Shown here piece by piece: positions 32,668 through 49,929 of a stretch of DNA of 64,000 nucleotides; position 1 is the stretch's first letter; every line of letters begins with the position of its first letter. The notes beneath the pieces are model-generated. The model was not told where the DNA came from and did not search any database. It worked only from the letters and a program-made list of their open reading frames with translations. This DNA comes from Deltaproteobacteria bacterium RBG_16_49_23 (GTDB lineage Bacteria > Desulfobacterota > BSN033 > UBA1163): positions 1-64,000 of the forward strand of contig MGQQ01000089.1 of the NCBI GenBank assembly GCA_001798855.1, in the 5' to 3' direction. Made by a program: the position numbers and the translations under genes.

Positions 32668-33549
32668 ATGAAATTGAGCGGCGTTATGCCCCCTATCAGC
32701 ACTCCTTTTCAAAAAGGAAATCTTGCCCTGGACAGGTTGAAAGAGAATTTTAACAGATGGAACAAGACCGGACTCTCCGGCTATCTTGTCCTGGGATCCA
32801 ACGGAGAGGCAGTCTATTTAAACGAAAAAGAGAAGATGAAAGTCATGGAAGTCTCCAGGGAATCGATTCCCAAAACAAAGGTAATGATCGTCGGAACAGG
32901 GACGGAATCGACACAGGAGACGATTCGTTTTACCCATCAGGCAGCAAAAGTTGGGGCCGATTTTGCTCTTGTCGTAACCCCTTGTTACTTTAAGGGATCG
33001 ATGAGACCCCAGGTCCTTTACGACCACTTCATCGCAGTTGCAGACTCCTCCAGAATCGGCATCCTCCTCTACAATGTCCCCCAATTTACCGGGATCAATC
33101 TGGACTCTGAACTGGTAGCAAAATTATCCTTTCATCGCAATATCCTTGGAATCAAAGACAGCTCAGGAAACATCGGCCAGTTGAATGAAATCATCCACCT
33201 TTCCCGGAAAGGGTTTGCTGTCTTTGTGGGGTCGGCCCCTGTCTTCTACCCTGCTCTTTGTGTGGGAGCAACCGGAGGAATCCTGGCTGTGGCGAATGTG
33301 GCGCCGGAAGAATGTGTCAGAATTCAGAGCCTTTTCCATCAGGGTAAAATAGCCGAGGCAATGGCCTTGCAGAACCAATTGAATCCGCTTGCCAAAGCGG
33401 TGACGGTGAAATATGGGATTGGCGGCTTAAAGACGGCTATGGACCTTGCCGGTTACTTCGGTGGAGATCCGAGACTCCCATTAAAAAAACCCGGAAAGGA
33501 CGTTGAAGAGGAATTAAAACGGCTATGGCTCAACTTCAAAAAAGTCTGA
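32668..33549 (+). CDS. DapA/HOGA-family aldolase
   Basis: This 293-residue TIM-barrel enzyme belongs to the dihydrodipicolinate synthase/N-acetylneuraminate lyase family. The Schiff-base lysine lies in GIKDSSG (about residue 162), the catalytic Tyr in YNVPQFTG (about 134), and the pyruvate-binding loop is LGSNGEA (about 43-49). The family includes several 2-oxoacid aldolases, including 4-hydroxy-2-oxoglutarate aldolase. Lysine biosynthesis is not suggested by its neighbours, so a catabolic aldolase is at least as likely. AAAGGAG precedes the ATG. Confidence 0.85.
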   Translation: MKLSGVMPPISTPFQKGNLALDRLKENFNRWNKTGLSGYLVLGSNGEAVYLNEKEKMKVMEVSRESIPKTKVMIVGTGTESTQETIRFTHQAAKVGADFALVVTPCYFKGSMRPQVLYDHFIAVADSSRIGILLYNVPQFTGINLDSELVAKLSFHRNILGIKDSSGNIGQLNEIIHLSRKGFAVFVGSAPVFYPALCVGATGGILAVANVAPEECVRIQSLFHQGKIAEAMALQNQLNPLAKAVTVKYGIGGLKTAMDLAGYFGGDPRLPLKKPGKDVEEELKRLWLNFKKV

Positions 33550-33567: not shown

Positions 33568-34236
33568 CTAAAAATTTAAGAACAATTCCTGGGTCACTTC
33601 CTGACCCGGTTTTATGATAATAAAATCCTCATTCCACCATCCTCGAAGCATCTTCTCAAAAAATGCTAACGATCCTGCCATCTCTTCATACCTGAGATGA
33701 AGAAACCGGGCGTTCTCCCTGGCATGTTCCCGATGGGTTTCTGATAAATCAGTCCCCACATCCACCAGGGCGATTCTCGTATAGTTCTTCAATTCCTCCT
33801 TGATCGCCCATTCCGCAGTCTCCTGACCGTAGCGTTGGCAGTATTCCTTGTAGATTCCAAGCGGAGATTTTCCTTCCTCTATCCATCCTTTGGTGAGATA
33901 GTAGGTTCCTGGCTCTTTTTTTTGTTCTTCCATATATCTGTTACAGGACCCGAGGAAAAGAGCGATGCAATCATGGACCTTTGGAATAACCATGGGATGC
34001 CGGTTGGCCTTGACACCTAATATCCCGTTACTACAAAGTCCATAGCTTAAAATAATATAATCTAATTCCTGCTCTGCAGCCCTATCGATCTCTTCCTGAA
34101 TAATCGGCTTCATCTTTTGAGGAGTCCGATGAAGGGATTGTTCTAGAAAAACGAAAGAGATTCCGTTGGTCTGGAAACGGAGGATCTCATCTTTCATGAT
34201 GTTGCAGGCAATTACGAGGTATTTTGTGTTTGCCAT
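33568..34236 (-). CDS. DUF1638 protein
   Basis: This 222-residue protein matches the DUF1638 type: VIACNIMKDEIL at the start, LSYGLCSNGILG at about 66-77, PKVHDCIALFLG, and a final region with conserved YRK/TDLS elements. The cysteines and HDC suggest a metal or corrinoid-related role. DUF1638 genes are often reported beside corrinoid methyltransferases, and here it is the last gene of such a cluster. The function is unknown. Confidence 0.8.
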   Translation of the reverse strand: MANTKYLVIACNIMKDEILRFQTNGISFVFLEQSLHRTPQKMKPIIQEEIDRAAEQELDYIILSYGLCSNGILGVKANRHPMVIPKVHDCIALFLGSCNRYMEEQKKEPGTYYLTKGWIEEGKSPLGIYKEYCQRYGQETAEWAIKEELKNYTRIALVDVGTDLSETHREHARENARFLHLRYEEMAGSLAFFEKMLRGWWNEDFIIIKPGQEVTQELFLNF

Positions 34237-34269
34237 CTGCTATCAGCTATAAGCTACCTGCTAAGAAAT

Positions 34270-35064
34270 TTATTCCAATCTTCCTTCCCTAAATCCGGCA
34301 ATATATTGCATACAGAATTCATCTTTTCCGGCGATCGTGAGGGCCGCTTTGAGCGCTCCGAAAAGCTGTTTGTCCGTTGGGTCTAAAATAACGGAATCCA
34401 AACCACGGCCAATAGCGGCTACAAGAAAGGCCCGATTCACAAGCTTCCGGTTGGGCAGACCGTAAGACACATTGGTGAGACCGCAGGTCGTATGAACGCC
34501 TGGGAACTCTTTCATGATTGTCTCAATAGCATCCAACGTTGCTAACGCTGACCGGTCATCGGTCGCAAGAGGATAGACGAGGGGATCGATGTACAGGTGA
34601 TCCAGGGGAACACCCGAAGCTTCCACCTTTTTCACGAGTTGCCCGGCCATTTTCACCTTTGCTTCGGCTGTATCTGCGATAGAGTCCCCTGATTGACAGA
34701 GACCAATGACCTTTGCCTTGTGTTCAGCCACCAACGGGAGAATGCCTTCCAAACGGGAAGCTTCCAGGGTGATGGAATTAATCATAGGAGTTTTCTTCAC
34801 CAACGGAATCATCGCTTTGATCACCGCCGGATCCGGACTGTCAATGGAGAGGGGAAGATCTACGGCTTCCTGGATGGTCTCAATAACCCACTGGAGATGC
34901 TTCGCCTCCTCACCGACAAAAGTCCCCGCATTGGCATCAATATAATCAGCGCCGGCCGCGGCCTGTATTTTTGCCTCATTCCGAATAAAAGCTGCATTCC
35001 TGGAGGAAATAGCATCGGCAATAGACTTTCGAGAAGCGTTGATTCGTTCACCGATGATCAGCAT
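34270..35064 (-). CDS. Methyltetrahydrofolate:corrinoid methyltransferase
   Basis: This 264-residue pterin-binding TIM-barrel protein starts MLIIGERINA and has GADYIDANAG, SIDSPDP and TTCGLTNVSYGLPNR, the substrate and pterin contacts of the AcsE/MtgA/MetH-pterin family. It transfers a methyl group between tetrahydrofolate and a corrinoid protein. The ATG at 35064 fits the family N-terminus; the longer frame starts with GTG. It lies downstream of the corrinoid protein and UroD-like genes, so its likely task is to move a demethylated substrate's methyl group to tetrahydrofolate. Confidence 0.92.
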   Translation of the reverse strand: MLIIGERINASRKSIADAISSRNAAFIRNEAKIQAAAGADYIDANAGTFVGEEAKHLQWVIETIQEAVDLPLSIDSPDPAVIKAMIPLVKKTPMINSITLEASRLEGILPLVAEHKAKVIGLCQSGDSIADTAEAKVKMAGQLVKKVEASGVPLDHLYIDPLVYPLATDDRSALATLDAIETIMKEFPGVHTTCGLTNVSYGLPNRKLVNRAFLVAAIGRGLDSVILDPTDKQLFGALKAALTIAGKDEFCMQYIAGFREGRLE

Positions 35065-35094
35065 GGGGCCTTTCACAAAGTGAGTTACAGGATC

Positions 35095-35185
35095 GCTCTA
35101 CGCTTAAGGTTGGAGGAGCGCTTCGCTTGAGGTAAAATCTTTTACCTCTATCCTCAAGTTCTGCTGCGGCAGAACGATCCTCAAA
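35095..35185. repeat. Intergenic repeat, family GAGGAGCGCTTCGCTT
   Basis: GTTGGAGGAGCGCTTCGCTTGAGGTAAAATC, CTGCTGCGGCAG and TCCTCAAACCTCTAACG fold as an inverted repeat. It is a second copy of 7672-7765. Confidence 0.6.
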
Positions 35186-35188
35186 CCT

Positions 35189-36298
35189 CTAACGATTTTC
35201 ACCTTTGTCCAATGGATACTTCCCGTATTTCTTGATGGCATGGGCCATCGCCCAGACATTTTCAGTCTTGCAATAATCTGTCAGGCTGTTCGCACTCGTG
35301 ACGATATAGCCCCCTCCAGGTCCTGCCGCGGCAATCCTTTCCCTGACCTCCTTATCCACTTCATCTGGAGTCCCTAAGGTAAGGGTATAATCGAGATCAA
35401 TATTGCCCAGAATGCAAACCCGATTCCCATATCTTTCCTTTATTTGTTTGATGTCCATAGCGGAAGGCTGGATAGGGTGAAGACCGTTCATCCCCAATGT
35501 CAGCAGATCATCTAAAATGGGCAGGAGGTTTCCATCGCTATGGAAAACCCAGGGTTTCTTAATCGCCTGGGCCACAATTTTTTGGTACGGGAGAAAAAAT
35601 TCCTGGTACTGTTCACGACTCATCCAGGTTGATTTCGTATCGGCATGGTCATCATTAACCCAATAATAATCAAAATCCATCCGGTTCAGATGTTCCACCA
35701 CTTTCGCCGACCATTCCGAAAACCTTCGATGAATCTCTTTGATCAGACCCGGGTTGTCATAAACATTATAGGCAAACTCCACAATGCCCATGCTCTCTAA
35801 CATCGAAGCAGATCCCAAGCGGATTCTGGCAAAAACGGCGTAATCCCCTTTGAATTGGGCAATCCATTTAGACACCTGCTCGTAACGAGCCGGATGATCC
35901 GGATCAGGAAGATATTCTTCGAAGAGTTTTAATGAGTCATTGGAGGTGAGCAGGCCCCGCTTAACAAATGTCCGGCCTGTTTCGGGGATGACCCCCATCT
36001 CTGCAATCCAGGGAGGGACAAAATCAAATGTGATTTTTTTCGGGTAATAATAACTCTCCTTAAAACCCACAGCAGCCTGCATGGCCTGGCCTGCAGTGGC
36101 TTGCCCCCCCATCGGGAAGTGATAACCGAAGCCGTCCATTCCGAGTTTATCGCAGAGCTGACCCGGAGTAAATTCGGTCGTCTCCATGATCCTCGCCTGG
36201 AGCCCCTCCTCAATATCATTCTCTATCCATGGAACCCGGTCTGGAACCCCTCTTTTTAATGCGGTCAAAATCCTATCCCTCGGTTTCATCCCCTTCAT
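35189..36298 (-). CDS. UroD-like methyltransferase (MtaA/CmuA-type superfamily)
   Basis: This 369-residue protein is of the uroporphyrinogen-decarboxylase fold, in the branch of corrinoid-linked methyltransferases. Features include RDRILTALKRGVPDRVP at the start and the family loop VFHSDGNLLPIL at about residue 250. In CoM-type methyltransferases this loop is HxCG with a zinc-binding Cys; here it is HSDG, so the zinc-thiolate site appears altered. GGAGGAGG precedes the ATG. With the adjacent corrinoid protein it may demethylate a substrate, possibly a methoxylated or methylated compound brought in by the Liv transporter. The substrate is unknown. Confidence 0.85.
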   Translation of the reverse strand: MKGMKPRDRILTALKRGVPDRVPWIENDIEEGLQARIMETTEFTPGQLCDKLGMDGFGYHFPMGGQATAGQAMQAAVGFKESYYYPKKITFDFVPPWIAEMGVIPETGRTFVKRGLLTSNDSLKLFEEYLPDPDHPARYEQVSKWIAQFKGDYAVFARIRLGSASMLESMGIVEFAYNVYDNPGLIKEIHRRFSEWSAKVVEHLNRMDFDYYWVNDDHADTKSTWMSREQYQEFFLPYQKIVAQAIKKPWVFHSDGNLLPILDDLLTLGMNGLHPIQPSAMDIKQIKERYGNRVCILGNIDLDYTLTLGTPDEVDKEVRERIAAAGPGGGYIVTSANSLTDYCKTENVWAMAHAIKKYGKYPLDKGENR

Positions 36299-36326
36299 AA
36301 ATCCCTCCTCCTCAGGAGTTGACTCT

Positions 36327-36968
36327 TCAAATCAATGTATTACACTTGATCACCGCTGCGCGGGCATCCTTTCCATAAAAGTCCGCCCCGATTTGGTCCG
36401 CAAATTTCTGAGTAAGAGGCGCTCCTCCGACTCCTATCTTAACTTTCTCTCTTACCCCGGCCTTTTTAAAAGTCCAAATCGTTTCATCCATCATCGACAT
36501 GGTTAAGGTAATGAGCGCAGACATCAGAACAAACTTGGGCTGATGTTGGTGAATGGCCTCGATAAATTTCTCCGGCGCGACATCAATTCCTAAATCGATC
36601 ACCTCATAACCTGCGCCCTGGAGAACCATGGAGACAATGTTCTTCCCGACATCATGAATGTCGCCTTTGACGGACCCGATCACCACTTTGCCCTTGCCCA
36701 ATGCCCCTTGCGCTGTAAGCATGGGACGGAGGATATCCAGGCCAATGTTCATCGCTCTTGCGGCAATCATCATCTCCGGCAGGAAGATCTCGTTTCGAGA
36801 ATATTGATCTCCCACCACATCCATGGCCGGAATCATGACATCATTCATGATCGCCTCAGGATTTAAACCATCGAACAAAAGTTTACGGACCAATGGTTCG
36901 ACCGCATCCCGTTTCCCTTTGATGATGGCTTGTTGAAGCTCCTCTTTCAGGGTTGTTATCTCAGGCAT
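36327..36968 (-). CDS. Corrinoid (B12-binding) protein
   Basis: This 213-residue protein has a helical cap domain and a Rossmann-like B12 domain with the classic motif GDIHDVGKN (the DxHxxG cobalt ligand His, about residue 105), followed by GYEVIDLGIDV and later GGAPLTQ. It is the methyl carrier of the methyltransferase module. The start at 36968 is chosen for GGGGAGG upstream; the longer frame would read into a C/G palindromic repeat. Genes for the methyl-THF transferase and UroD-like enzyme follow it. Confidence 0.93.
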   Translation of the reverse strand: MPEITTLKEELQQAIIKGKRDAVEPLVRKLLFDGLNPEAIMNDVMIPAMDVVGDQYSRNEIFLPEMMIAARAMNIGLDILRPMLTAQGALGKGKVVIGSVKGDIHDVGKNIVSMVLQGAGYEVIDLGIDVAPEKFIEAIHQHQPKFVLMSALITLTMSMMDETIWTFKKAGVREKVKIGVGGAPLTQKFADQIGADFYGKDARAAVIKCNTLI

Positions 36969-36984
36969 ATTAGACCTCCCCAAG

Positions 36985-37075
36985 AAATCCTCCCCACCCT
37001 TTTCTTCCCCTCTCCGAGCCAGAGGCTCTTCTGAGCCGGAGGCCTCGAGGGGGAAGGGTGAGGGAGGGGGGGATA
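36985..37075. repeat. C/G-tract palindrome
   Basis: CCTCCCCACCCTTTTCTTCCCC is mirrored by GGGGGAAGGGTGAGGGAGGGGGG with GAGCCAGAGGCTCTTCTGAGCC in the middle. It separates livF from the corrinoid gene. Confidence 0.6.
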
Positions 37076-37088
37076 TCAATAATATTGG

Positions 37089-37799
37089 TTACGTTGCTCC
37101 TGCGACAATCTTCAGGACAGCTTTATCCTTCATCAGCCCTTCAGGTTTTCCCGAGAAGATGATCTCCCCTCTTTCAATGACATAAAGCCTGTCTGTAAAA
37201 TCGGGAACATGATAAATGTTCGATTCAGCGAGGAGGATGGAGTGACCCATTTTAGCAATCTCATGGATACTCTCTGCGATCTGCGGGATGATGGCCGGTG
37301 AGAGCCCTTCGAAGGATTCATCGAGCAATAGCATATGAGGATCCATGGCCAACGCTCTTGCGATCGAGAGCATTTTCCTCTCCCCACCACTGATCTGTGT
37401 CCCCTTTCTCGCCTTATACCTCTCCAGGGGTGGAAATACAGAATAAGCGAGCCGGACCCTCTCTTCTGCGGAACGCGAGGTTTTTCGGGTCCAGGTCGCG
37501 ATCTCAATATTTTCTAAGGTGGTTAAATCGGCAAATATTTCACTTTCTTCCGGAGCAAAGCCTATTCCCAAAAGAGCAATCTCGTGAGGAAAAAACTCGG
37601 TAATCTCTTTTCCCATGAACTTGATGCTGCCGGACTCGGGTTTAAGAAATCCCATAATGCTCCTGAGAGTAGTGGTCTTGCCTGCCCCATTCCTTCCGAT
37701 GAGACAGACGACTTCTTTCTCCCCCACCTCGATATTCACATTTTGCAGGATATGGCTGGCCTTGATAAAAACATTGATGTCTTTTAATTCGAGCATCAT
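37089..37799 (-). CDS. livF: Branched-chain amino acid-type ABC transporter ATPase LivF
   Basis: This 236-residue ATPase has Walker A GRNGAGKTT (about 34-42), signature SGGERK, Walker B MLLLDESFEGLSP, and a switch-His region. The sequence around GFLKPESGSIKF and the AIIPQIAESI stretch is LivF-like. The start overlaps the livG stop by four bases (ATGA). It powers uptake through LivHM in the inner membrane. Because methyltransferase genes follow directly, the cargo may be a methylated or methoxylated substrate rather than an amino acid; this is inference. Confidence 0.92.
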   Translation of the reverse strand: MMLELKDINVFIKASHILQNVNIEVGEKEVVCLIGRNGAGKTTTLRSIMGFLKPESGSIKFMGKEITEFFPHEIALLGIGFAPEESEIFADLTTLENIEIATWTRKTSRSAEERVRLAYSVFPPLERYKARKGTQISGGERKMLSIARALAMDPHMLLLDESFEGLSPAIIPQIAESIHEIAKMGHSILLAESNIYHVPDFTDRLYVIERGEIIFSGKPEGLMKDKAVLKIVAGAT

Positions 37800-38605
37800 G
37801 CTTTACCGCCCTTTCCGGTATGTTCATGCATCAGGGCGCTGAAAATCTTGAAACATTCCTTTTGCCCTAAGACGGTGCAAACCACTTCTTCATTCTTCTC
37901 GATTTCTCCCGGGGCGCTATCCGATAAGATCTTCCCCTGGTGTAAGGCGATGATGCGATCCGAAAAGGAGAAAACGATATCCATATCATGCTCCACTTGA
38001 ATGATCGATTTGATCCCGATCTTTTTCGAAGCCGATACAAGGGTTTCCATAATCTTGTTCTTATCGCTGGTGCTCACGCCACTCGTGGGTTCATCCAGCA
38101 AAATAACCTCGGGGTGAAGGGCAAAAGCGGAGGCGACATCGAGCATCTTTTTGTCGCCCTGAGGTAAATTCTTTGTTAGCACATCTCTCTTTCCAACTAA
38201 TCCAAAGAGCATTGCCACCTCCAACGCCTCACTCGTCACCTTCTGGTCTCGGAGAAGTGAGGAGTAGAAGTTGGTTCCTTTCCCCAATCGTGAAACCACA
38301 GCGACCATTAAGAACTCAAGGACGGTAAAATTTGGGAAAATATTGACCAGTTGAAAACTCCGGGCAACCCCCAGTTTTGAAAGCTTTTCAGGACCGATTC
38401 CGGTAATCTCTTTATCCTTGTAAAAAACTTTCCCCGTATTCGGTGTAAGCAATCCGGTCAAGACATTGATTAATGTGGTCTTGCCCGCCCCATTCGGTCC
38501 AATGATGGACACAAACTCCCCTTCATTAATCTTAAAGCTTACCCCATCCAGGGCACAGAACTCTCCATAATATTTACGAAGATCACTCGCAGAGAGAATC
38601 ACCAT
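37796..38605 (-). CDS. livG: Branched-chain amino acid-type ABC transporter ATPase LivG
   Basis: This 269-residue ATPase has Walker A GPNGAGKTT (about 35-43), a LPQGDKK signature replacing the usual LSGGQ, Walker B VILLDEPTSGVS and the H-loop residue in VEHDMDI. The altered signature is common in LivG proteins. It starts 10 bases after the livM stop and shares the ATGA overlap with livF. It forms the ATPase heterodimer with LivF. Confidence 0.92.
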   Translation of the reverse strand: MVILSASDLRKYYGEFCALDGVSFKINEGEFVSIIGPNGAGKTTLINVLTGLLTPNTGKVFYKDKEITGIGPEKLSKLGVARSFQLVNIFPNFTVLEFLMVAVVSRLGKGTNFYSSLLRDQKVTSEALEVAMLFGLVGKRDVLTKNLPQGDKKMLDVASAFALHPEVILLDEPTSGVSTSDKNKIMETLVSASKKIGIKSIIQVEHDMDIVFSFSDRIIALHQGKILSDSAPGEIEKNEEVVCTVLGQKECFKIFSALMHEHTGKGGKA

Positions 38606-38615
38606 CTCTATCTCC

Positions 38616-39605
38616 TCATTCGCCGCCTTTCTCTTTTTTCACCAGAGAGCTGATCACTCCAGCAATACCACCCGGCGCAACGATAACGAGAAAGGCCAAA
38701 ATGGCCCCAAAGATAAACCTCCAATAAGTCGTGAGAGACATAACCTTGTCTTGAAGGAAAATATAGACGACACCGCCGATCAAGGGGCCAAAAAAGTTTT
38801 CGAAACCTCCGAGGAGGGTCATAAACACGAGTGTTCCAGAGTGTGTCCAGTAAGTCAGCCCAGGATCCACTTGGCCGATGGCAGGAGCCAATAACGCTCC
38901 TCCGATCGCAGCATAGGCTCCGGATATAATAAAGGCATACCATCTGTATCTCTTTACGCTCACCCCCAGATATTCAGCTTTCTCAGGGTTGTCCCTGATC
39001 GCCTTCAGGCAGAGCCCGAACGGTGATGAGACGATCTTCCACATGACGAAGGTAAGGATCGCTAAAATAACAAGAGTATAGATATAATAGCTTCTTGTGA
39101 GGTACTGCATTTTTGGAATCTCAGAAAGGTTAAACCCCAGGAGATAAGGCCTTAAAACTCGCATTCCTTCGTCGCCCCCGGTCAGATAATAGAACTTCAG
39201 CAAGAACGTGTAGAAGAGCATCCCAAAGGCGAGGGTAAGCATTGCAAAGTAAATTTTGATGTATCGCACACAGATGGCCCCGATCAATGCAGCCAGAATA
39301 GAAGAGATGATGACCGCAACAACAAGTATGACTTCCATATAAAGAATAGAAAATTTGCCTGTGAGGAAAGCGGCTGTATAAGCTCCAATCGCCATAAAAA
39401 AAGCATGGCCAAAGGAGAGGAGGCCGGTGTATCCAAAGAGAAGATTAAGACCAAGCACCATGACGGCATAGGCGAAAAAAGTTAACATTAGATAACTGAC
39501 ATATTGGCTGGCGAACAGGGGTAACCCTAAAAACAGTAGACCGACAACGATGAGGATCAATACTTTCGTGCTCTTGAGAGACAAGATCTCCTGCCATGGT
39601 TTCAT
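38616..39605 (-). CDS. livM: Branched-chain amino acid-type ABC transporter permease LivM
   Basis: This 329-residue permease has many hydrophobic segments, a family motif GYTGLLSFGHAFFMAIGAY at about 60-78, and the ATPase-coupling loop around SVKRYRWYAFIISGAYAAIGGAL. The ATG at 39605 overlaps the livH stop as TGATG. Together with LivH it forms the channel in the inner membrane. Confidence 0.92.
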   Translation of the reverse strand: MKPWQEILSLKSTKVLILIVVGLLFLGLPLFASQYVSYLMLTFFAYAVMVLGLNLLFGYTGLLSFGHAFFMAIGAYTAAFLTGKFSILYMEVILVVAVIISSILAALIGAICVRYIKIYFAMLTLAFGMLFYTFLLKFYYLTGGDEGMRVLRPYLLGFNLSEIPKMQYLTRSYYIYTLVILAILTFVMWKIVSSPFGLCLKAIRDNPEKAEYLGVSVKRYRWYAFIISGAYAAIGGALLAPAIGQVDPGLTYWTHSGTLVFMTLLGGFENFFGPLIGGVVYIFLQDKVMSLTTYWRFIFGAILAFLVIVAPGGIAGVISSLVKKEKGGE

Positions 39606-40489
39606 CAAACTTTACTCCCTCCGAATAACCCTTGCGGCTTAATCACTAGAACAGCAATCACGATGATATAGATGGTGAGCATTTCCAATTCTGGATAAGT
39701 GGAAATGGCGACCGATTTTAACACGCCTACGATCAGAGCGCCGATAAAGGCTCCCTTCATGCTTCCGAGGCCGCCAATGACCACCACGGCAAAAGCTAAC
39801 ACGATAAGTTCTACACCCATTTCTGAAACAACCGCGGTGGCAGGAATCACCAGAGCGCCGCCAAGAGTTCCAAGCACCGTTCCGAGTGTGAAAACTTTAA
39901 TGTAAACCATCTTCATATTGATCCCGAGGGCTTCACCCATCTCTTTTTTGTCCGCCGTCGCTCGAATAATCCTGCCGAACTTTGTGTTCAAAAGAATGTA
40001 ACCGATCAGGGCGGCAATGATTAAGCTGCATAAGATGACAATGAGGTTGTAAACGGGTAACGTGGCCCCGAATAGATTGATCCGACCGTAAATCAGGTCA
40101 ATTCCTCCTGTGGTTTGTGGGGAGGTTCCCCAAATAAACTTGATGACATCCTCGATCATCATTACGAGCGCAAAGGTTAATAGGAGTTGAAAAGTTTCAT
40201 CCCGGTCGTAAACAAACTTGATCAGTCCTCGTTCGACAATAGGACCGATAAATCCCAGCAATAATCCAGCCCCAATCAATGGAACGATAAAAAGTGGCTT
40301 GGGAAAACCTCCAGCAACAAAACTCTTTACTACCACGATGCCAAAATACGCCCCGAGGGCATAGAAGCTGCCACAGGCCAAATTAAATACTTTCTGGACA
40401 CCGAAAACGACCTGAAGCCCTGCAGCAACTAAAAAAAGCGTCGAGGCATTAAAAACGCCGCTGAAAATTATACTGACAATGGTTTCCAT
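39605..40489 (-). CDS. livH: Branched-chain amino acid-type ABC transporter permease LivH
   Basis: This 294-residue permease has about eight hydrophobic segments, FNLACGSFYALGAYFG near the N-terminus and the coupling region ATADKKEMGEALGIN, then VVIGGLGSMKGAFIGALIVGV. It lies downstream of the binding-protein gene, separated by a GC-rich hairpin. Confidence 0.92.
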   Translation of the reverse strand: METIVSIIFSGVFNASTLFLVAAGLQVVFGVQKVFNLACGSFYALGAYFGIVVVKSFVAGGFPKPLFIVPLIGAGLLLGFIGPIVERGLIKFVYDRDETFQLLLTFALVMMIEDVIKFIWGTSPQTTGGIDLIYGRINLFGATLPVYNLIVILCSLIIAALIGYILLNTKFGRIIRATADKKEMGEALGINMKMVYIKVFTLGTVLGTLGGALVIPATAVVSEMGVELIVLAFAVVVIGGLGSMKGAFIGALIVGVLKSVAISTYPELEMLTIYIIVIAVLVIKPQGLFGGSKV

Positions 40490-40509
40490 TCATTTGCCCC
40501 AAACAGCGA

Positions 40510-40536
40510 GGCGGCCTCAAGGTTTCTGAGGCCGCC
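40510..40536. terminator. GC-rich hairpin between binding protein and permeases
   Basis: GGCGGCCTCA pairs with TGAGGCCGCC over a 7-nt loop, without a following T-run. Such hairpins after binding-protein genes often stabilise the upstream mRNA, allowing more binding protein than permease. The effect here is inferred. Confidence 0.6.
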
Positions 40537-40551
40537 CGATTCAAAATCTCT

Positions 40552-41847
40552 TTACGACTTCCAACCCTTAATCCATTCGTATAACTTTGTTTCCGCAGTG
40601 GGTTTAATGATCTGTGAAGGGGTGAGGACCTCCACCGGATCAATCGTCACAAAGTCATAGGGGTTCTTGTGAGTGGTAATCCCCATAAAAAAATTGCAGG
40701 TCATAATGTTGTCCTCCCTGTATCCGCGATATCCGGACAGAGAAGGAACCTGGATGCCGCTCAGGGCTTTTCCAACCTCTTCCTTGGTCGGCCATTTTCC
40801 CAAAATCGAATAACACTTCTCAACGGCCGTCTTGTAAGCCTGAAGGACAAAATAGGCGTGATCGCATTCATAGACAGGATATTCCTTATATTTATCAAAG
40901 TACGTTTTTACAAATTTTGTAAGCAATGGCCAGGTGTCCGTCCATTTGAAATACATGCTGTTATATCCGAGGATGAGCCCTTCCGGAGTAAATTCTTTCT
41001 TGAGGGTATAGTGGACTCCGCCTCCTGTTGTAAAACAGCCTTTCGTGGTCTTGAAAAGGCCTACAGCCGCTGCCTGCTTCATTAAAATGGGGACATCTCC
41101 TGACCAAAAACTGGTCATGATTAAATCCGGTTTCGCCTTTTTAAGGGCGGCGATGTGAGAAGTAAAATCTGTTTCGCCAAGCTTCGGCCATAGGGCCTCC
41201 ACGGCCTTCACATTCGGATGGAAGTGTTTCAGGACGGCTTGAAAGGATTCCCAGCAATCTCGGCCATAGGAATAATCGTTATTGATGCCCGCGATGGTCT
41301 TGATCTTAGGAAAATACTTGGCTGTCAGGATCGCCCCTCCAATTGCTTCCGCTTCGTTATCGATGCTTTTAAAAGCAAATTTCGTCTTGGGCATGGTCTC
41401 TTCAACGCCTTTTTGGGTTGTGCCATCCCAGGCAAGCCACAATTGACCTAACTCCTCAGCCAGAGGACCAACGGCAAGTCCGTTTCCGGTAGACATGAGA
41501 CCGACAATCACGTCAACCTTCTTCTCCAGGGTAAGTTTTTTAAATCTCTCTACGCACTCTTTGGCGGTCGTTTCCTCCTCCATGTGGAGCTCAACTTTCC
41601 TTCCTAAGATTCCGCCCGACGCATTGACCTCGTCTGCCCAGATCTGGGTCGTACGCCAGGCGGCTGTGCCGGGAACTCCGATCACACCCGTTAAACCGGG
41701 CATGACTCCAATCCTTATCGGCTCTGAAGGCGCCCCTTTTGCAGGTATGGTCTGCGCGCTTGCTCTGCCCTTGCCTGCAAGAATAACTCCTGCACCCAGG
41801 GCAGCCCCACCCACCAACTTCACAAATTCACGTCGGGTCTTTTCCAT
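40552..41847 (-). CDS. Liv-type ABC transporter substrate-binding protein with twin-arginine leader
   Basis: This 431-residue periplasmic binding protein has a leader TRREFVKLVGGAALGAGVILAG with paired arginines and an AXA-type cleavage region near SAQ. The mature domain is type I periplasmic-binding-fold (IRIGVMPGLTGVIGVPG, GLMSTGNGLAVGPLAEE, DYSYGRDCWESF). The start is set at 41847 because AAGGAGG precedes it; the longer frame has 12 extra codons. It is the first gene of the Liv operon. Ligand is unknown. Confidence 0.92.
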   Translation of the reverse strand: MEKTRREFVKLVGGAALGAGVILAGKGRASAQTIPAKGAPSEPIRIGVMPGLTGVIGVPGTAAWRTTQIWADEVNASGGILGRKVELHMEEETTAKECVERFKKLTLEKKVDVIVGLMSTGNGLAVGPLAEELGQLWLAWDGTTQKGVEETMPKTKFAFKSIDNEAEAIGGAILTAKYFPKIKTIAGINNDYSYGRDCWESFQAVLKHFHPNVKAVEALWPKLGETDFTSHIAALKKAKPDLIMTSFWSGDVPILMKQAAAVGLFKTTKGCFTTGGGVHYTLKKEFTPEGLILGYNSMYFKWTDTWPLLTKFVKTYFDKYKEYPVYECDHAYFVLQAYKTAVEKCYSILGKWPTKEEVGKALSGIQVPSLSGYRGYREDNIMTCNFFMGITTHKNPYDFVTIDPVEVLTPSQIIKPTAETKLYEWIKGWKS

Positions 41848-41918: not shown

Positions 41919-43073
41919 TTACAATGGCGATCCCATCGCCTCCAGAACGACCTCTGTAATATCCCTTACCTTCAATTTGATCTTATGCTTTCTTGCATAA
42001 CCTGAGATGGTCCGGATGCACTGCTGGCAGGAAGTCACAACCTCCCCGGCTCCCGTTCTCTGAATCTCTTCGATCTTTCTCTGTGCAATGGCAGCGGAGA
42101 GCGCCGGATCAATCATCTCAAGGTCTCCTCCTCCGCCGCAGCATACGCTCAACTGGCGGTTTCCCTCTAACTCAACCAGGTTCAATCCGGGGATTCGCTT
42201 TAAAATATTTCTGGGGGCGTCGAAAACTTTGCTGTTCCTCCCCAGATCGCAGGGATCATGATAGGTGACGGCTCTGTCAGCTCCATTCTGGAAAGTGATC
42301 TTCCCTTCTCCGATCAGCCTTTCTATGAATTGAGTCGAATGAAGCAGTTCAGCATTCGTTTGATACTTCTCCTTCCAGGTATGGAAGCAGGAGGGGCACG
42401 CAAAGACAACCGTTTCAGCTCCTATTTCCTTTACCTTCTCCTGATTGTGTTCGACCAGCTTCTGCATCTTCTCCTTCATGCCCGCCTGGATGAGTGGAAA
42501 TCCGCAGCACCATTCCTCCCCTCCTAGAATGGTGAAGTCGACATCCGCCTTATGCAGAATCTGAACAAAGGTCTGCGGGATCTTATGGGCCATCGGGTAA
42601 AAAGCCGCCACACATCCCACAAAGTAGATCACTCTCGCTTTCTCCTTCTGGAACCTGTGATCCGGGATGTCTTCCAATTTCTCCATCCACAGGGTGCGGT
42701 TAGCATTCGGCTCATTAGAAATATTGAAATGAGTTTCCAGCGCTTCGACCACCCGGTCAACCACCTTTGGGTATTGTTTCCGGTCAACCAGACATTCCCG
42801 TCCTGCCAGAACAGCCTGATTGGTTTCGACCGCCGGGAAACAGGTCTGCGTGCAGAGCTTGCAGCCCGTGCACCGGAAGAGTGTCTCTTCAATTTCAGGT
42901 GTCCAGTCGATCTTGCCCTCTATGATCGCCTTCACAAGCACATTCTTTCCGCGGGGGGTGGCCCATTCCCTTCCTGTAACTGTATAAACAGGACAGTGGG
43001 CCAGACAGAAGCCGCAATGGTTGCATTTGGCAACCTCGTCATAGAACAGGGTTTTGAGTTGTTCGGTCTTCAT
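41919..43073 (-). CDS. glcF: GlcF/HdrD-like Fe-S and CCG-domain subunit
   Basis: This 384-residue protein has two N-terminal 4Fe-4S motifs, CNHCGFCLAHCP and CTGCKLCTQTCF (the last Cys not followed by Pro), then two CCG domains (FVGC, WCCGF, CPSC; DPC, CCGGGG, CQQC). It is the GlcF/LutA-like subunit of 2-hydroxyacid (glycolate, D-lactate) dehydrogenases, or the HdrD-like acceptor. The ATG at 43073 has GGAG upstream. It follows the GlcE- and GlcD-like genes, and the Liv operon comes next in the same direction. Confidence 0.88.
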   Translation of the reverse strand: MKTEQLKTLFYDEVAKCNHCGFCLAHCPVYTVTGREWATPRGKNVLVKAIIEGKIDWTPEIEETLFRCTGCKLCTQTCFPAVETNQAVLAGRECLVDRKQYPKVVDRVVEALETHFNISNEPNANRTLWMEKLEDIPDHRFQKEKARVIYFVGCVAAFYPMAHKIPQTFVQILHKADVDFTILGGEEWCCGFPLIQAGMKEKMQKLVEHNQEKVKEIGAETVVFACPSCFHTWKEKYQTNAELLHSTQFIERLIGEGKITFQNGADRAVTYHDPCDLGRNSKVFDAPRNILKRIPGLNLVELEGNRQLSVCCGGGGDLEMIDPALSAAIAQRKIEEIQRTGAGEVVTSCQQCIRTISGYARKHKIKLKVRDITEVVLEAMGSPL

Positions 43074-43094
43074 ACTTAGCTCCATTTTCTTGAG

Positions 43095-43230
43095 AAACCA
43101 TTGCAAAATTAGCCACGCCTTGGCGTGGCAAAATTAGCAATTAGCAATGATCTTGACTAATTCGACTTATTCACGTCTAATCTTTCAATTGCTAACTGAT
43201 AATTGTTAATTGACCAATTTGCATTGATCC
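43095..43230. repeat. AT-rich inverted repeat (TTGCAAAATTAGC type)
   Basis: TTGCAAAATTAGCCACGCCTTGGCGTGGCAAAATTAGCAATTAGCAATGATC is mirrored by CAATTGCTAACTGATAATTGTTAATTGACCAATTTGCA. It resembles 15000-15190. Confidence 0.6.
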
Positions 43231-43232
43231 TT

Positions 43233-44597
43233 TCAGATTCCTCCCGCAAACCTTCCCGGGTTGAGGATTCCTTTCGGATCGATCTCTTTCTTCAATCGCC
43301 GCATGATCTCGTAATCACCTCTGGGTTCCCCCCAGACATCGATCCTCTTTTTGATGTCAGGAGGAGCCGACTCCACAACGGGGTGACCTTCGTTTTTGAC
43401 GGCGACTAAGGAGAACTCTCTTATGAGGTTGAGCAAGGATTCTTTTTTGGATCGCACGCCTTTGCCGCCGAAGACATAGGAGTAAAGTATTCCGTTTCCC
43501 GAATGGCAGATGAGTCCACAATCGACTCCGGACTCTTTTGCGATTTTTTCATAGCTGCCCATCACCTCTCCACATCTCGAGATCAAAATATTGGATTTGA
43601 AGGAGATAAAATTTAACCCCTCTTCCGCCAGTCCCTCTGAAAAGTCTCGTATCGCCTTCCAGAAGGAGGAGTGAGATTCCGAACGGAGAACCGCTATTTC
43701 AAGGGCGCTTTTCTTCTTCGCCCTTTCTCCTATCTCCGAGACCTGCCGCTCAATGCTTTCAGCCACACCTTCCAACCCTATGGCAACGAGATAATTCCCC
43801 TGCTGGGCTATTGGAGGGTTGATCTTCTTCACAGCCATTCCGTTGAGGATCTCAATGGATGAAGGAAGGTATTGGGATTGGAGGATTTCACGTCCAAATT
43901 GAGCAGCCTCCTCCAGTCTGACAAAAGGGAGGAGCAAGGTTGCCTCTCTCTCCGGAAGGGGGAGGAGTTTAAAGGTGATCTCACAGAGGATTCCCAGTGT
44001 CCCGTAAGAACCGATCAGGAGCTTGCACATGTCGTAGCCCGAGACATTCTTCACTGTTTTTCCACCCGAGGCAACAATATCCCCGTTGGGAAAAACAGCT
44101 TTTATCCCGATGATTAAATCCCTCGCCGTGCCGTAAATTAGTCTTCCGGGCCCGCTCGAATTGGTCGCTACGATCCCGCCCAGCGTCGCCTTCAAAGTGT
44201 GGGGTGGATCAAGGGGTAGAAAATATCCTTTTCCTTCCTGCCCCAATTTTTTCTGAACCTCGCCCAGTGTGATTCCGCTTTCTGCGGAAAGGGTAAGATT
44301 ATCACAATCACAATCCGTCATTCGGTTGAGTCGGAGAGTGGAGAGGACGACATCCATCTTTCCGGGTATCGTCCCTATCCCCATCTTCGTCCCATTCCCC
44401 ATGGGAAGAATGGTCAGAGATTGCTCGTTGGCATAGGCGACGACTTTTGAAACCTCGGCGATCGTGCCCGGGAAGACAACAACCTTGGGTCGCTTTCCAT
44501 CAACGGAACACGCTTTTAGTTTTTCCGGATCTTGAATGAGATTGGTTTCCCCTACGATCTCTTTTAACTTGGGAATTAGTTTTTCAATTCTGGACAT
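43233..44597 (-). CDS. glcE: GlcE-like FAD-binding subunit
   Basis: This 454-residue FAD-linked oxidase-type protein contains the FAD_binding_4 core (VSKVVAYANEQSLTILPMGNGTK, GGIVATNSSGPGRLIYG, SGYDMCKLLIGSYGTLG) and ends DPKGILNPGRF. It is of the GlcE type, the second flavin subunit of glycolate oxidase. The start at 44597 has GAGGAG upstream; the longer ORF has 25 additional codons. It lies between GlcD and GlcF. Confidence 0.85.
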   Translation of the reverse strand: MSRIEKLIPKLKEIVGETNLIQDPEKLKACSVDGKRPKVVVFPGTIAEVSKVVAYANEQSLTILPMGNGTKMGIGTIPGKMDVVLSTLRLNRMTDCDCDNLTLSAESGITLGEVQKKLGQEGKGYFLPLDPPHTLKATLGGIVATNSSGPGRLIYGTARDLIIGIKAVFPNGDIVASGGKTVKNVSGYDMCKLLIGSYGTLGILCEITFKLLPLPEREATLLLPFVRLEEAAQFGREILQSQYLPSSIEILNGMAVKKINPPIAQQGNYLVAIGLEGVAESIERQVSEIGERAKKKSALEIAVLRSESHSSFWKAIRDFSEGLAEEGLNFISFKSNILISRCGEVMGSYEKIAKESGVDCGLICHSGNGILYSYVFGGKGVRSKKESLLNLIREFSLVAVKNEGHPVVESAPPDIKKRIDVWGEPRGDYEIMRRLKKEIDPKGILNPGRFAGGI

Positions 44598-44776
44598 ATA
44601 AATCTCCTCGAATATTACAATTCGGAAAAACAATAACCAATCACCAAATTCCAAGCTCGAACATAATAACACCTCCCAACCCCCTCTTAACTTAAGAGGG
44701 GGAGTTATTGTTTGAAATTTAGCGTTTGGTTATTTTTCCATTATTTAACGCATTCGCATTACCATCCATGATTGTA

Positions 44777-46162
44777 TTACGCTTGAACTTCCGGCAAGAT
44801 CTTTCCGGGGTTACAGATATCTTCCGGATCGAAAGCCTTCTTCACCTTTCTCATTGCGGCAATATCCTGAGGGGAGAAGATAAAGAACATCTCCTTCATC
44901 TTCTCCGTGCCAATCCCATGCTCCCCGCTTATGGTCCCGCCTGCATCGGCGCATAATTTCATGATCTCGGAGCCTGCCAGATGCACCTTCCTCAGCTCCT
45001 CCTCGTCCCTTTCGTCAAAGAGGATGAGGGGATGGAGATTTCCATCTCCCGCATGAAAGACATTCGCGATGGTAAGGCCATACTTCTTGCTCACCTCCAT
45101 TACCTGGACCAACACCTCGGGTAGTTTGGTCCTCGGCACCGTTCCATCACAGACAAGATAGTTGGGACGAAGTCTCGAAAGGGCGCCGAATGCCCCTTTC
45201 CGGCCTGCCCAGAGCTGTGTTCTTTCGGCCTCCGTCTTGGCGGATTTTACCTCACGGGCGTTATTCTTCCTGCAGATCTCCATGATTCGTTCCGCCAGCC
45301 TCTCCATCCCGTCTTTGAGCCCATCGATCTCGATGAGAAGAACAGCTTCTGCGTCGAGAGGAAAACCCGCATGGACCGATTCCTCAACCGCCTTGATCGT
45401 CAGTTTATCGAGGATTTCGAGCGTAGCCGGAACGATTCCATCGGCAATGATGGCAGAGACCGTTCTGCCTGCATCCTCCAGAGAATTGTAGATGGCCAGC
45501 ATCGTTTTAACCGCTTCGGATTTGGGCATGATCCGGAGAGTTAATTGAGTGGCGATTCCCAGCGTCCCTTCTGAACCCACCAGGAGCCCTGTCAGATCAT
45601 ATCCGGGATTATCCAGCGCTTTGCCACCGACCTGAATCACCTCGCCATCCGGAAGAACAACCTCAGCTCCCAGGATGTGGTTCGTCGTCACACCGTATTT
45701 GAGACAGTGAGGACCTCCCGAATTCTCTGCAAAATTTCCTCCGAAGGTGGAGACCTTCTCACTTGCAGGGTCCGGTTGATAGACAAATCCATATCGGGCC
45801 AACTGATTTTTTAAAGCAAGGGTGAACAGGCCCGGTTCAACTACAGCCCTCTGATTTTCGATATCGATCTCGAGAATCTTGTTCATCCTGGAAAAGTGAA
45901 GGATAATCCCGCCCCGGGTGGGAATCGTCCCGCCGCTCAGATTCGTTCCAGAACCTCTTGCAATGACAGGAATGTGCTCACGGTGGCAGAACTTGACGAT
46001 TTGAGAAACCTCTTCCGTTGAACCCGGAAACAGAATGCAATCGGGTTTTGCCTTAAAAAGGGAGGCATCATACCCATAGAGGAACAGGTCTGTCTCCGAG
46101 GAAAGCACATTCTCTTTTCCGACGATCTTCGATAACTCTTCAACCATTCTCTCGCGTTCCAT
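44777..46162 (-). CDS. glcD: GlcD-type FAD-linked 2-hydroxyacid dehydrogenase
   Basis: This 461-residue protein has the FAD_binding_4 domain (RGSGTNLSGGTIPTRGG at about 70-86; GGNFAENSGGPHCLKYG) and the C-terminal FAD-linked oxidase domain with FHAGDGNLHP and SGEHGIGTEKM, ending CNPGKILPE. It oxidises glycolate, D-lactate or a related 2-hydroxyacid. The start at 46162 follows AAGGAGG; six further codons are possible upstream. With GlcE and GlcF it would form a three-subunit complex. The nearby CitE-type lyase could make glyoxylate, giving glycolate/glyoxylate as a plausible substrate pair. Confidence 0.9.
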   Translation of the reverse strand: MERERMVEELSKIVGKENVLSSETDLFLYGYDASLFKAKPDCILFPGSTEEVSQIVKFCHREHIPVIARGSGTNLSGGTIPTRGGIILHFSRMNKILEIDIENQRAVVEPGLFTLALKNQLARYGFVYQPDPASEKVSTFGGNFAENSGGPHCLKYGVTTNHILGAEVVLPDGEVIQVGGKALDNPGYDLTGLLVGSEGTLGIATQLTLRIMPKSEAVKTMLAIYNSLEDAGRTVSAIIADGIVPATLEILDKLTIKAVEESVHAGFPLDAEAVLLIEIDGLKDGMERLAERIMEICRKNNAREVKSAKTEAERTQLWAGRKGAFGALSRLRPNYLVCDGTVPRTKLPEVLVQVMEVSKKYGLTIANVFHAGDGNLHPLILFDERDEEELRKVHLAGSEIMKLCADAGGTISGEHGIGTEKMKEMFFIFSPQDIAAMRKVKKAFDPEDICNPGKILPEVQA

Positions 46163-46177
46163 GGATCCTCCTTCAAT

Positions 46178-46236
46178 CAAGGCTAAAGCCTTGAGTTACA
46201 GACTTCGTCTTTCTGTAACTCAACCCTTTAGGGTTG
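46178..46236. repeat. Inverted repeat, family AAGGCTAAAGCCTTGAGTTACA
   Basis: CAAGGCTAAAGCCTTGAGTTACAG is mirrored by CTGTAACTCAACCCTTTAGGGTTG. It is the second copy of 16045-16118. Confidence 0.7.
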
Positions 46237-47537: not shown

Positions 47538-48431
47538 TTATTTCTTTCTTTTGGCATCAAAGGCGGCGATCTCATCTACGGTGGCAAGGATCGTCCTTGC
47601 ATTATCATAGACCGGGGTATCCACCATCTTCCCCAGATAGGAGACGGCGGCCGCGCCCTTTGCAATTCCCTCTTCCTCAAAGACCTTTACCACCCCTTTC
47701 GCCCATTCCACATCCTCCGGCGCCGGAGTGTAGATTCGATGGGCCGGCTCGATCTGGCTGGGATGAATGAGCATTCTTCCCTCATATCCCAACTGCCGGC
47801 CGAAGCGGGTGTTCTTCTCAAAGGCTTCCGTATCTTTAAAGGCTACGAAGGGACAGTCAATGGCAATGCAACCCGCTGCCCTGGCAGCGACAGCGTTATG
47901 AGCCCGTGCATAGAATTGCTCGTCCCCCTCGGTGGTGAGTTTCACCCTCATGTCTTTCGTATAATCCACGGCGCCAAAGATAAGGGAGCTGACCCGCTTG
48001 CTCGCAGTGGCTGATGGATAGGCATTGATAACGCCTTTGGCTGTTTCAATAAGAAGCTGAATCGCAATGCTTCCAACCTTCAACCCTCTTCTTCGCTCTA
48101 ATTCCTCCAGTTTCCAGTCGAGACGCTGGACATGATCCGCACCACCCGTCTTGGCCAGACAGACCCCAGAAAGCCCCTCATAGACGATGGCCTCCAGGTC
48201 ATCGTTCGTCATCAAGGTCTCCCAGTTATTGATCCTTACATAGATTGTGGACCCTCCCGATCCGGCGAATTTCAGGTTCTCCCGGACCATCTCGCGAGCC
48301 CTTGCCTTCTCGGCCGGCGGGACAGAGTCTTCCAGGTCGAGCGTGATAATATCGGCCGGTGTCTCAGGGGCCTTCGAAACCATTTTCTCATTGTTTCCCG
48401 GAATGTAAAACACAGATCGCATGACAGTCAT
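47538..48431 (-). CDS. CitE/malyl-CoA lyase-family protein (HpcH/HpaI)
   Basis: This 297-residue TIM-barrel lyase has ITLDLEDSVPPAEKA (about 25-39), IQLLIETAKGVINAYPSA and FGAVDYTKDM, the Mg2+ and CoA-thioester contacts of the CitE/malyl-CoA lyase family. Members cleave malyl-, citramalyl- or beta-methylmalyl-CoA to glyoxylate or pyruvate plus a CoA ester. It lies directly downstream of a succinate/malate-CoA ligase pair, an order that suggests a malate thiokinase and malyl-CoA lyase pathway. The start at 48431 follows AGGAGG by seven bases. Confidence 0.88.
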   Translation of the reverse strand: MTVMRSVFYIPGNNEKMVSKAPETPADIITLDLEDSVPPAEKARAREMVRENLKFAGSGGSTIYVRINNWETLMTNDDLEAIVYEGLSGVCLAKTGGADHVQRLDWKLEELERRRGLKVGSIAIQLLIETAKGVINAYPSATASKRVSSLIFGAVDYTKDMRVKLTTEGDEQFYARAHNAVAARAAGCIAIDCPFVAFKDTEAFEKNTRFGRQLGYEGRMLIHPSQIEPAHRIYTPAPEDVEWAKGVVKVFEEEGIAKGAAAVSYLGKMVDTPVYDNARTILATVDEIAAFDAKRKK

Positions 48432-48487
48432 AACCACACCTCCTCTTTAATTTTGGCTATTCTATAGAATTCGAATCCAAACTCGAA

Positions 48488-48565: not shown

Positions 48566-49462
48566 TCAGCTTTTCAGCAATTTTTTGAGGGTTGGGGCGA
48601 TTTCATCGGGCCGGTCGACCACATGGACTCCGGCCTCCTTCAGGGATTTGATTTTGTCTTTGGCCGACCCCTTCCCTCTTTCGATGATGCTGCTCGCATG
48701 GGAGAACCGCATTCCCTCCGGGGCCCAGGCGCCAGCGACATAGACCACAAGGGGCTTTGTGAATTTCTTCGTCCTTACCGCCTCGGCTGCCTCCTCTTCG
48801 TAGGGACCTCCGATTTCCCCGAAGACGGCAACAGCCTTTGTATCCGGATCAGCTTCAAAAAGAGGCAGGAGGTCGCCCATGGACTGCCCCAGAACCGGCT
48901 CTGTTCCGATATGGACAACCGTGGTCACACCAAGGCCGGCCTGCTGAATGGCCCACGGCACCGTGCCGGACTGCCCGCCACTTCTCGAAATGACGCCTAT
49001 GGGGCCTGGCACGAAGACCTTCTTTGCAAACTCCGGCGTCCCTCCGAGCCAGCCCGCGGCTGCAATTCCGGGGCTGATAATGCCAATCGATCCTGGCCCT
49101 AACAACCGTGCGCCCTTCTGTTTCCCATAGGCCATCATCTCAAGGATGTCATAAAGAGGAACGCGTTCCACAGGCATGACAATGAACTTAATGCCGGAAT
49201 CCAGCGCTTCGAGAACCGCATCCCTCAGACCCGGACCGGGAACAAAGGTCACGCTTGCATCAATTGGACCTTTCGCCCGAACGGCCTCTTCAACCGTGTT
49301 AAAGACAGGGATTCCCGTTACTTCTTCTCCCCCTCTTCCAGGTGTCACTCCTGCCACCACCTTCGTCCCGTAACCTTTCATAAAGGCGGCCCGCACTGAG
49401 CCTTCCCTTCCGGTAATCCCCTGAACTAAAATCGTCGTATTCTTTTCAAGTAGAATCGCCAT
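48566..49462 (-). CDS. sucD: Succinate/malate-CoA ligase, alpha subunit (SucD/MtkB-like)
   Basis: This 298-residue protein has the CoA-binding N-terminus ([21 protein letters not shown], typically residues 8-28), the [12 protein letters not shown]-type sequence [14 protein letters not shown] and a phospho-histidine region [17 protein letters not shown]. It pairs with the beta subunit encoded further upstream to form CoA esters from succinate or malate with ATP. The start follows AGGAGG; the longer ORF extends into a C/G repeat. Beside a CitE-type lyase, malate-CoA ligase is plausible, but succinyl-CoA synthetase cannot be excluded. Confidence 0.9.
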
Positions 49463-49497
49463 CTCCCATATCCTCCTAATATCCCCCCTCACCCTCT

Positions 49498-49665
49498 CCC
49501 TCTCCCCCAAGGGAGAGGGGTTTAAGAGGTTTCCCTCTCCCCCAAGGGAGAGGGGTTTAAGGGGTTTCCCTCTCCCCCAAAGGAGAGGGGTTTAAGGGGT
49601 TTCCCTCTCCCCCAAAGGAGAGGGGTTTAAAGGGTTCCCCTCTCCCCGCTGGGGAGAGGGGAAAG
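49498..49665. repeat. 35-bp tandem repeat, about 4.5 copies
   Basis: The unit CCCTCTCCCCCAAGGGAGAG plus GGGTTTAAGGGGTTT repeats four times head to tail with small changes, followed by a partial copy and a CTGGGGAGAGGGG arm. Each unit contains an inverted repeat. It is a local expansion of the C/G-tract repeat, not a CRISPR array. Confidence 0.85.
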
Positions 49666-49744
49666 GTGAAGGAAAATTTTAAATATTTTTGTTAAGATCC
49701 CAAATTTTTCATTTTTCAATTTGAAATTTGAAATCTGAAATTTG

Positions 49745-49918: not shown

Positions 49919-49929
49919 GAAATTTGAAA

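Follow-up and report, generated by a model that had tools for sequence, protein, structure and literature searches.

A transporter-linked corrinoid methyltransferase cluster in a deltaproteobacterial genome: a probable import-and-demethylate cassette

The first 64,000 nucleotides of contig MGQQ01000089.1 from Deltaproteobacteria bacterium RBG_16_49_23 (the window; contig C89 of a 3.8 Mb draft genome that is 93% complete) carry a block of nine genes in which a Liv-type ABC transporter is followed directly by the genes of a corrinoid-dependent methyl-transfer system. We consider it quite likely that this block is an import-and-demethylate cassette feeding methyl-tetrahydrofolate (methyl-THF) to the Wood-Ljungdahl pathway. 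In the best-supported reading, which comes from comparison of sequences, the cassette would function as an O-demethylase system does, with an importer to itself, and its donor-side methyltransferase (MT1) would lie outside both the classical O-demethylase and the thiol-methyltransferase families. Literature searches on methoxyacetate, on PocR and on UroD clusters with linked transporters brought up no description of such a cassette.

Gene content and the HSDG active site

The nine genes occupy positions 33568-41847 on the reverse strand, are close-packed and run in the same direction, coordinates that fit a real unit. Their order is receptor-LivHMGF-corrinoid protein-UroD-like enzyme-methyl-THF methyltransferase-DUF1638, with spacings of about 62, -4, 7, -4, 124, 28, 112 and 33 bp. 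Read from the low-coordinate end, Pfam backs every one of them (DUF1638, Pterin_bind, URO-D, B12-binding with B12-binding_2, ABC_tran twice, BPD_transp_2 twice and Peripla_BP_6), and the preliminary description, in which a Liv-type transporter runs straight into these methyl-transfer genes, thus stands for the whole set.

33568..34236, reverse strand: DUF1638 protein with a probable accessory role in corrinoid reactivation (PF07796, 153 bits)
34270..35076, reverse strand: methyl-THF:corrinoid protein methyltransferase, MT2 or MeTr (NF005719, 318 bits, cut-off 259)
35189..36298, reverse strand: UroD-like methyltransferase with HSDG at its site, the proposed MT1 on the donor side (PF01208, 76 bits, over cut-off)
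36327..36965, reverse strand: corrinoid protein (CP) with DIHDVG cobalamin-binding motif (PF02310 and PF02607; MtgC-like, 200 bits)
37089..37799, reverse strand: LivF-type ATPase (PF00005)
37796..38605, reverse strand: LivG-type ATPase (PF00005)
38616..39608, reverse strand: LivM-type permease (PF02653)
39605..40489, reverse strand: LivH-type permease (PF02653)
40552..41847, reverse strand: periplasmic receptor, Tat-type, from a clade linked to corrinoid genes (PF13458, 150 bits)

No Rfam element was found in the window, hence no argument can be built on a cobalamin riboswitch, and promoter and terminator patterns occur at chance level only.

The cluster contains the MT1, corrinoid protein and MT2 of a three-component corrinoid methyltransferase system. 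The corrinoid protein carries the DxHxxG motif (GDIHDVG in the translation) within PF02607 and PF02310, and its highest score, 200 bits, is with the MtgC models for glycine betaine, short of the cut-off of 370. The MT2 appears to be of the tetrahydrofolate-binding kind: the pterin-site blocks IDS, INS, IDP and N(V/I)S are conserved, and the best PDB match is 4o0q (E 7e-55), which we take to be the MT2 of a Desulfitobacterium O-demethylase. The host genome has a carbon monoxide dehydrogenase/acetyl-CoA synthase (CODH/ACS) locus, FolD and MTHFR. In Phaeobacter, DUF1638 and a RamA-like activase have fitness phenotypes in common, and no reaction was proposed for DUF1638 there (PMC5764234).

In the proposed mechanism, the periplasmic receptor and LivHMGF would import an organic anion that carries a methyl group, the HSDG enzyme would transfer this group to the Co(I) of the corrinoid protein, and MeTr would pass it on to tetrahydrofolate, with methyl-THF entering the Wood-Ljungdahl pathway of the cell. 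DUF1638, together with a RACE-type activase encoded elsewhere, would keep the cobalt active. We infer the direction of the reaction, the direction of import and the substrate.

The UroD-like enzyme reads H253-S-D255-G256 where MtaA has HxCG, a replacement of the zinc motif that the preliminary description had already recognized. The MtaA site H-x-C...C, whose histidine and two cysteines we take to be zinc ligands, aligns with H253-x-D255...N337 in the window enzyme, and either HxDG or HxDS is present in 67 of 68 aligned relatives, the sole exception being a frameshifted row. The enzyme had been called atypical for this motif, a label that does not hold, as HxDG is standard across a broad URO-D subclade. 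Because H-x-C...C is replaced by a conserved H-x-D...N, both zinc cysteines having given way to Asp and Asn, thiol chemistry is unlikely, and the methyl partner at this enzyme is probably not a thiol, in line with what had been surmised from the motif. The TIGR01463 model (MtaA type) scores 55.7 bits, below its cut-off of 235.4. An AlphaFold2 model of the enzyme (pLDDT 91.9) has MtaA 4ay7 as its nearest solved fold (E 3e-15) and places the conserved residues on the barrel strands 211-215, 250-254 and 331-333 or immediately behind them, where an active site would be expected.

Comparison with the classical O-demethylase type of MT1 was made through CdmB and the Mtv-like UroD proteins of Moorella stamsii, whose Mtv identity is taken from gene order. 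Among PDB sequences, the single UroD-like protein matches CdmB best, at E 3e-11 over residues 224-361 only (138 residues), and CdmB has FQGE at the HSDG position. The 26 URO-D proteins of M. stamsii sort into HxCG, HxDG and neither, with FAEG in the mtv-like cluster. Thus the window enzyme, with HSDG, does not share the site of the CdmB or classical O-demethylase type, and HxDG is a widespread site type, one of three that recur, beside HxC...C and FxEG. CdmB has been found to be zinc-free (PMC13222342).

Recurrence of the transporter-methyltransferase pairing

The arrangement of the block goes beyond chance, with the order receptor-LivHMGF-CP-UroD-MeTr recurring in a Syntrophaceae metagenome bin (locus L054), where the transporter and methyltransferase genes are 72-85% identical to those of the window and a RACE-like activase gene immediately precedes the receptor. 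A search for the receptor in 395 genomes of the phylum gave 15 with a match at E 1e-70 or better. The three most similar receptors (window; G017, 67%; G041, 64%) all have UroD and corrinoid genes as neighbours, the G041 locus (L156) reading MeTr-receptor-LivHMGF-UroD/CP fusion; ten other fetched receptor loci, at 37-40% identity, had no corrinoid methyltransferase neighbours. Two Proteobacterial cases add receptors at 46% (L067) and 44% (L165) identity, and in L165 the Liv genes end against DUF1638-RACE-UroD-CP. In the receptor tree, the six corrinoid-linked receptors form one clade with support of 98/99. Because the pairing recurs in six genomes and the receptors form a supported clade, the transporter is probably part of the methyl-transfer module and imports the methyl donor, and the suggestion of an imported donor made in the preliminary description is strengthened accordingly.

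The receptor is only 21-23% identical to E. coli LivJ and LivK. At the position of LivK Glu226, presumably the residue that holds the amino group of the ligand, the window receptor has Phe272, which is invariant in the receptor alignment (A4). An ordinary amino-acid transporter that happens to lie beside unrelated methyltransferase genes is a rival explanation: Liv systems are very common, their annotations rarely reveal a substrate, and 124 bp separate LivF from the corrinoid protein gene. Against such a coincidence stand the pairing in six genomes with its supported receptor clade, the placement of an activase before and a corrinoid protein after the transporter in L054, and the loss of Glu226, so that we regard it as hardly probable at all. 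The adjacent Liv genes of L072, at only 22-32% identity, were too dissimilar to count as this transporter; a betaproteobacterial search for further receptors returned none besides the starting genome; and an AlphaFold2 model of the receptor from three sequences (pLDDT 45) was not used.

The methyltransferase itself was followed through a scan of named genomes that gave 80 UroD loci. A clade of 21 rows (99% SH-aLRT support) contains the window enzyme and spans Thermodesulfobacteriota, Pseudomonadota, Bacillota and Chloroflexota. Among loci of at least 10 kb, the 18 of the close clade have a corrinoid protein gene in 15 cases, MT2 in 9, DUF1638 in 10, RACE in 8 and an importer of one of four types in 13, as compared with 4, 0, 1, 0 and 1, respectively, among 34 distant UroD loci. 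The kind of importer (Liv, TRAP, MFS or TctC) varies while the methyltransferase is constant, and UroD relatives at 62-85% identity carry TRAP, MFS and TctC systems. In Proteobacterial members the genes run CP-UroD-MeTr-RACE-MTHFR-DUF1638, an arrangement that places CH3-THF metabolism within the operon.

The same components could also work in reverse and hand the methyl group of methyl-THF to an acceptor, as they would within, for instance, a split methionine synthase; a corrinoid protein, a PF00809 protein and DUF1638 are likewise pieces of the split enzyme of Phaeobacter (PMC5764234). This direction is very unlikely in our view: the PF02574 homocysteine methyltransferase was not found in the host draft genome (93% complete), its place in the cluster is taken by a UroD protein without the zinc cysteines, and the tie to an importer would be left unexplained. 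A split methionine synthase was considered on its own and judged unlikely on the PF02574 result. As a separate observation, with no PF02574 and only two PF02607 corrinoid proteins found, the methionine route of this host is not obvious.

Several features of the related loci deserve mention in their own right. Three TRAP-linked islands of the same genus (L034, L036 and L040) hold HSDG, HCDG (LPWVPRIDLWHNSN type) and HLCG UroD-like methyltransferases side by side with several corrinoid proteins, and that of L036 also has RACE. UroD is joined to a corrinoid protein in a single protein at L156:10476-12251, a layout that recalls CmuA. A similarly CmuA-like layout is seen at L060:3056-4981, where the C-terminal half is a corrinoid protein and the N-terminal half, without a Pfam match, resembles the WYxxN UroD type. 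A PanB (ketopantoate hydroxymethyltransferase) paralogue, perhaps a user of CH2-THF, lies beside the Proteobacterial methyltransferase operon at L060:8247-9125 (reverse strand) and in L059, and PhyH-type dioxygenases lie by TRAP and UroD/CP genes at two Proteobacterial loci (L064:5043-5972 and L069:6017-6928). PocR-domain AraC regulators adjoin HSDG UroD genes at L034:8067-9404 and L061:8542-9870, the corrinoid protein and DUF1638 genes being transcribed divergently from that of L034.

Insertion site and candidate methyl donors

The block lies between the last gene of a conserved upstream operon and a convergent aldolase gene:

32668..33549, forward strand: DapA-family aldolase, convergent flank of the block, nearest to 4-hydroxy-2-oxoglutarate aldolase (HOGA)
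41919..43106, reverse strand: GlcF-like iron-sulfur subunit, last gene of the operon (CCG and Fer4 domains)
43233..44600, reverse strand: GlcE-like FAD-linked oxidase subunit (NCBIfam glcD 210 and GlcE 146 bits, both below cut-off)
44777..46180, reverse strand: GlcD-like 2-hydroxyacid dehydrogenase subunit (TIGR00387, 544 bits, cut-off 568)
46239-47150, reverse strand: methionyl-tRNA-formyltransferase-like protein (FMT), kept in the SucD-HpcH-GlcDEF operon across the genus
47538..48437, reverse strand: CitE/malyl-CoA lyase-like protein of the same operon (NCBIfam citE 213 bits; PDB 1sgj and malyl-CoA lyase 5ugr)
48566..51653, reverse strand: acyl-CoA ligase subunits resembling SucD and SucC, also in this operon

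The aldolase matches human HOGA (3s5n) at 217 bits, as against 154 for the best DapA, and this flank is kept in relatives. The GlcDEF-like proteins score below the curated glycolate dehydrogenase cut-offs (GlcD 544/568, GlcE 146/284 and GlcF 103/333 bits); they appear to belong to the glycolate dehydrogenase family, with glycolate as a predicted substrate. In same-genus genomes the SucD-HpcH-FMT-GlcD-GlcE-GlcF operon, its order kept in L198, L201 and L202, is followed by the convergent aldolase. In five of these genomes (L197-L201), GlcF, 85-93% identical to that of the window, adjoins the HOGA-like gene at 0-245 bp, whereas in the window the two are 8.3 kb apart and exactly the nine-gene block lies between them. 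In G011 (L202) this site is taken by a TRAP transporter with a receptor that scores 464 bits against the lactate receptor TTHA0766, and in G004 (L203) it holds MeTr (87%) and DUF1638 (86%), then a relative of LarA-type racemase. Because its content differs in these three genomes, the site is an entry point of variable content, located where a conserved 2-hydroxyacid operon ends; in G004 the rest of the block may have been lost, or the block may have been assembled stepwise. The GC content of the block, 47.7%, is slightly below the 50.6% of the flanks.

A small carboxylate is the most likely methyl donor. Since the substrates of TRAP and TctC importers are mostly organic acids, the fact that these importers can replace the Liv system suggests a carboxylate. 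Solved receptors for lactate and 2-oxoacids are the best matches, at 152 and 146 bits, of the TRAP receptors encoded near close UroD genes within the genus and in L060, and the lactate receptor is the second match of a Moorella TRAP receptor. Receptors of this type together with a glycolate-type operon fit methoxyacetate or a similar 2-methoxy acid, since demethylation of methoxyacetate would give glycolate, the apparent fuel of the upstream GlcDEF-like/malyl-CoA lyase-like/acyl-CoA ligase-like operon. A 2-methoxy acid such as methoxyacetate is thus the leading candidate, though short of probable, on a case that is circumstantial.

An alternative that has to be weighed is an O-demethylase for methoxylated aromatic acids of the lignin type, using the same three-step mechanism, with the glycolate operon as a chance neighbour. 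The characterised UroD-superfamily O-demethylases MtvB, OdmB, VdmB and MtoB use methoxylated aromatics (PMC8630106, PMC13222342), the MFS importers beside L058, L063, L066 and L073 recall MtoB clusters, and branched-chain ABC transporter genes of Archaeoglobus are induced on 2-methoxyphenol (PMC8359953). However, aromatic-degradation genes were not noticed in the loci read, FAEG and FQGE occupy the HSDG position in the M. stamsii Mtv-like cluster and CdmB, and the nearby TRAP receptors are closest to lactate/ketoacid receptors. The neighbourhood evidence favours a small 2-methoxy monocarboxylate over aromatic methoxy acids, and we regard an aromatic donor as unlikely, if not strongly so. A donor with its methyl group on nitrogen or sulfur and not on oxygen (betaine, dimethylglycine or a methylthio acid) would agree with the MtgC-like score of the corrinoid protein and with a cysteine-dioxygenase-like gene near the L067 cluster. 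Such a donor seems improbable, as that neighbour occurs at one locus only and the HxC...C of thiol-type UroD proteins is absent from the window enzyme; betaines look unlikely because the cluster has no MttB-type methyltransferase.

Several points weigh against the import-and-demethylate cassette with a methoxyacetate-like donor. No RACE activase gene is present in the window cluster, and the only PF14574 match of the host genome is a contig-edge fragment beside CODH/ACS; an activase does lie beside the module in L054, L060 and L165. The transporter could be under separate regulation, L054 and L067 were reached via UroD and are not independent cases, and the receptor sample is only partly unbiased. 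The substrate itself is a matter of circumstantial inference. GlcD or GlcF genes are rare near clade UroD genes (2 of 18 loci, plus the window and G017, as compared with 1 of 34 distant loci), no clear general enrichment of glycolate genes emerged from these 18 and 34 loci, none lie near UroD in the Proteobacterial loci, and the block may lie next to the glycolate operon by chance. All characterised O-demethylases that we found act on aromatic methoxy acids (PMC8630106, PMC13222342), and methoxyacetate is not used by A. malicum or A. dehalogenans (PMC12062537).

Elsewhere in the window, a second 2-hydroxyacid cluster at 52823-62577 comprises a DctP, DctQ and DctM TRAP transporter, a glyoxylate-reductase-like dehydrogenase, a FadR/GntR regulator and GlcD-like and GlcF-like proteins. 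At 29037-32498, ferredoxin-type, aldehyde-ferredoxin-oxidoreductase family and cytochrome b-like proteins are encoded in a row, the last two being 97% identical in G009.

Relation to known systems and significance

The Mtv, Odm/Vdm and Mto O-demethylases are built from the same kinds of components (a UroD-superfamily MT1, a corrinoid protein, a PF00809 or MtrH-type MT2 and an activase), but the window MT1 has HxDG and not the FxEG-type site of the Moorella Mtv-like cluster, and the window cluster has a dedicated Liv-type importer and lacks an activase. The Cdm chloromethane system of Acetobacterium likewise combines a UroD-superfamily MT1 with a corrinoid protein and MT2, although CdmB has no His/Asp site, is zinc-free, has a hydrophobic channel for the gas and needs no importer (PMC13222342). 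MtaA, MtbA and CmuA share the fold of the window MT1, MtaA 4ay7 being the nearest solved structure, whereas their H-x-C...C zinc-thiol site is replaced by H-x-D...N. The glycine betaine MtgBC/MttB family has a similar corrinoid protein (200 bits to MtgC) with an MttB-type MT1, in whose place a UroD-like enzyme is found here. The HAAT/Liv branched-chain amino acid transporters have the same five-gene architecture and receptor family, yet the window receptor belongs to a clade of its own without the amino-group-binding Glu226.

UroD-family methyltransferases are numerous and mostly without a known substrate: the 3.3 Mb genome of the cultured acetogen Moorella stamsii (G402) has 27 URO-D family matches, several of which neighbour corrinoid, TRAP or TctC genes, and in a paper of 2026 entire UroD clades are coloured as having "unknown substrates" (PMC13222342). 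It is conceivable, if doubtful, that the cassette represents the first set of genes for O-demethylating an aliphatic methoxy acid under anaerobic conditions, in which the Liv-type receptor clade would import methoxyacetate, the HxDG UroD would release glycolate and the neighbouring operon would burn glycolate via malyl-CoA. Methoxyacetate was reportedly fermented to glycolate and acetate in work of 1990, and we know of no genes for this fermentation; if true, a methoxyacetate cassette would explain that report. Since the receptor gene is physically tied to one UroD subclade, the substrate should be findable by a simple binding screen, and relatives in named strains and in Proteobacteria would allow the system to be studied without the uncultured host.

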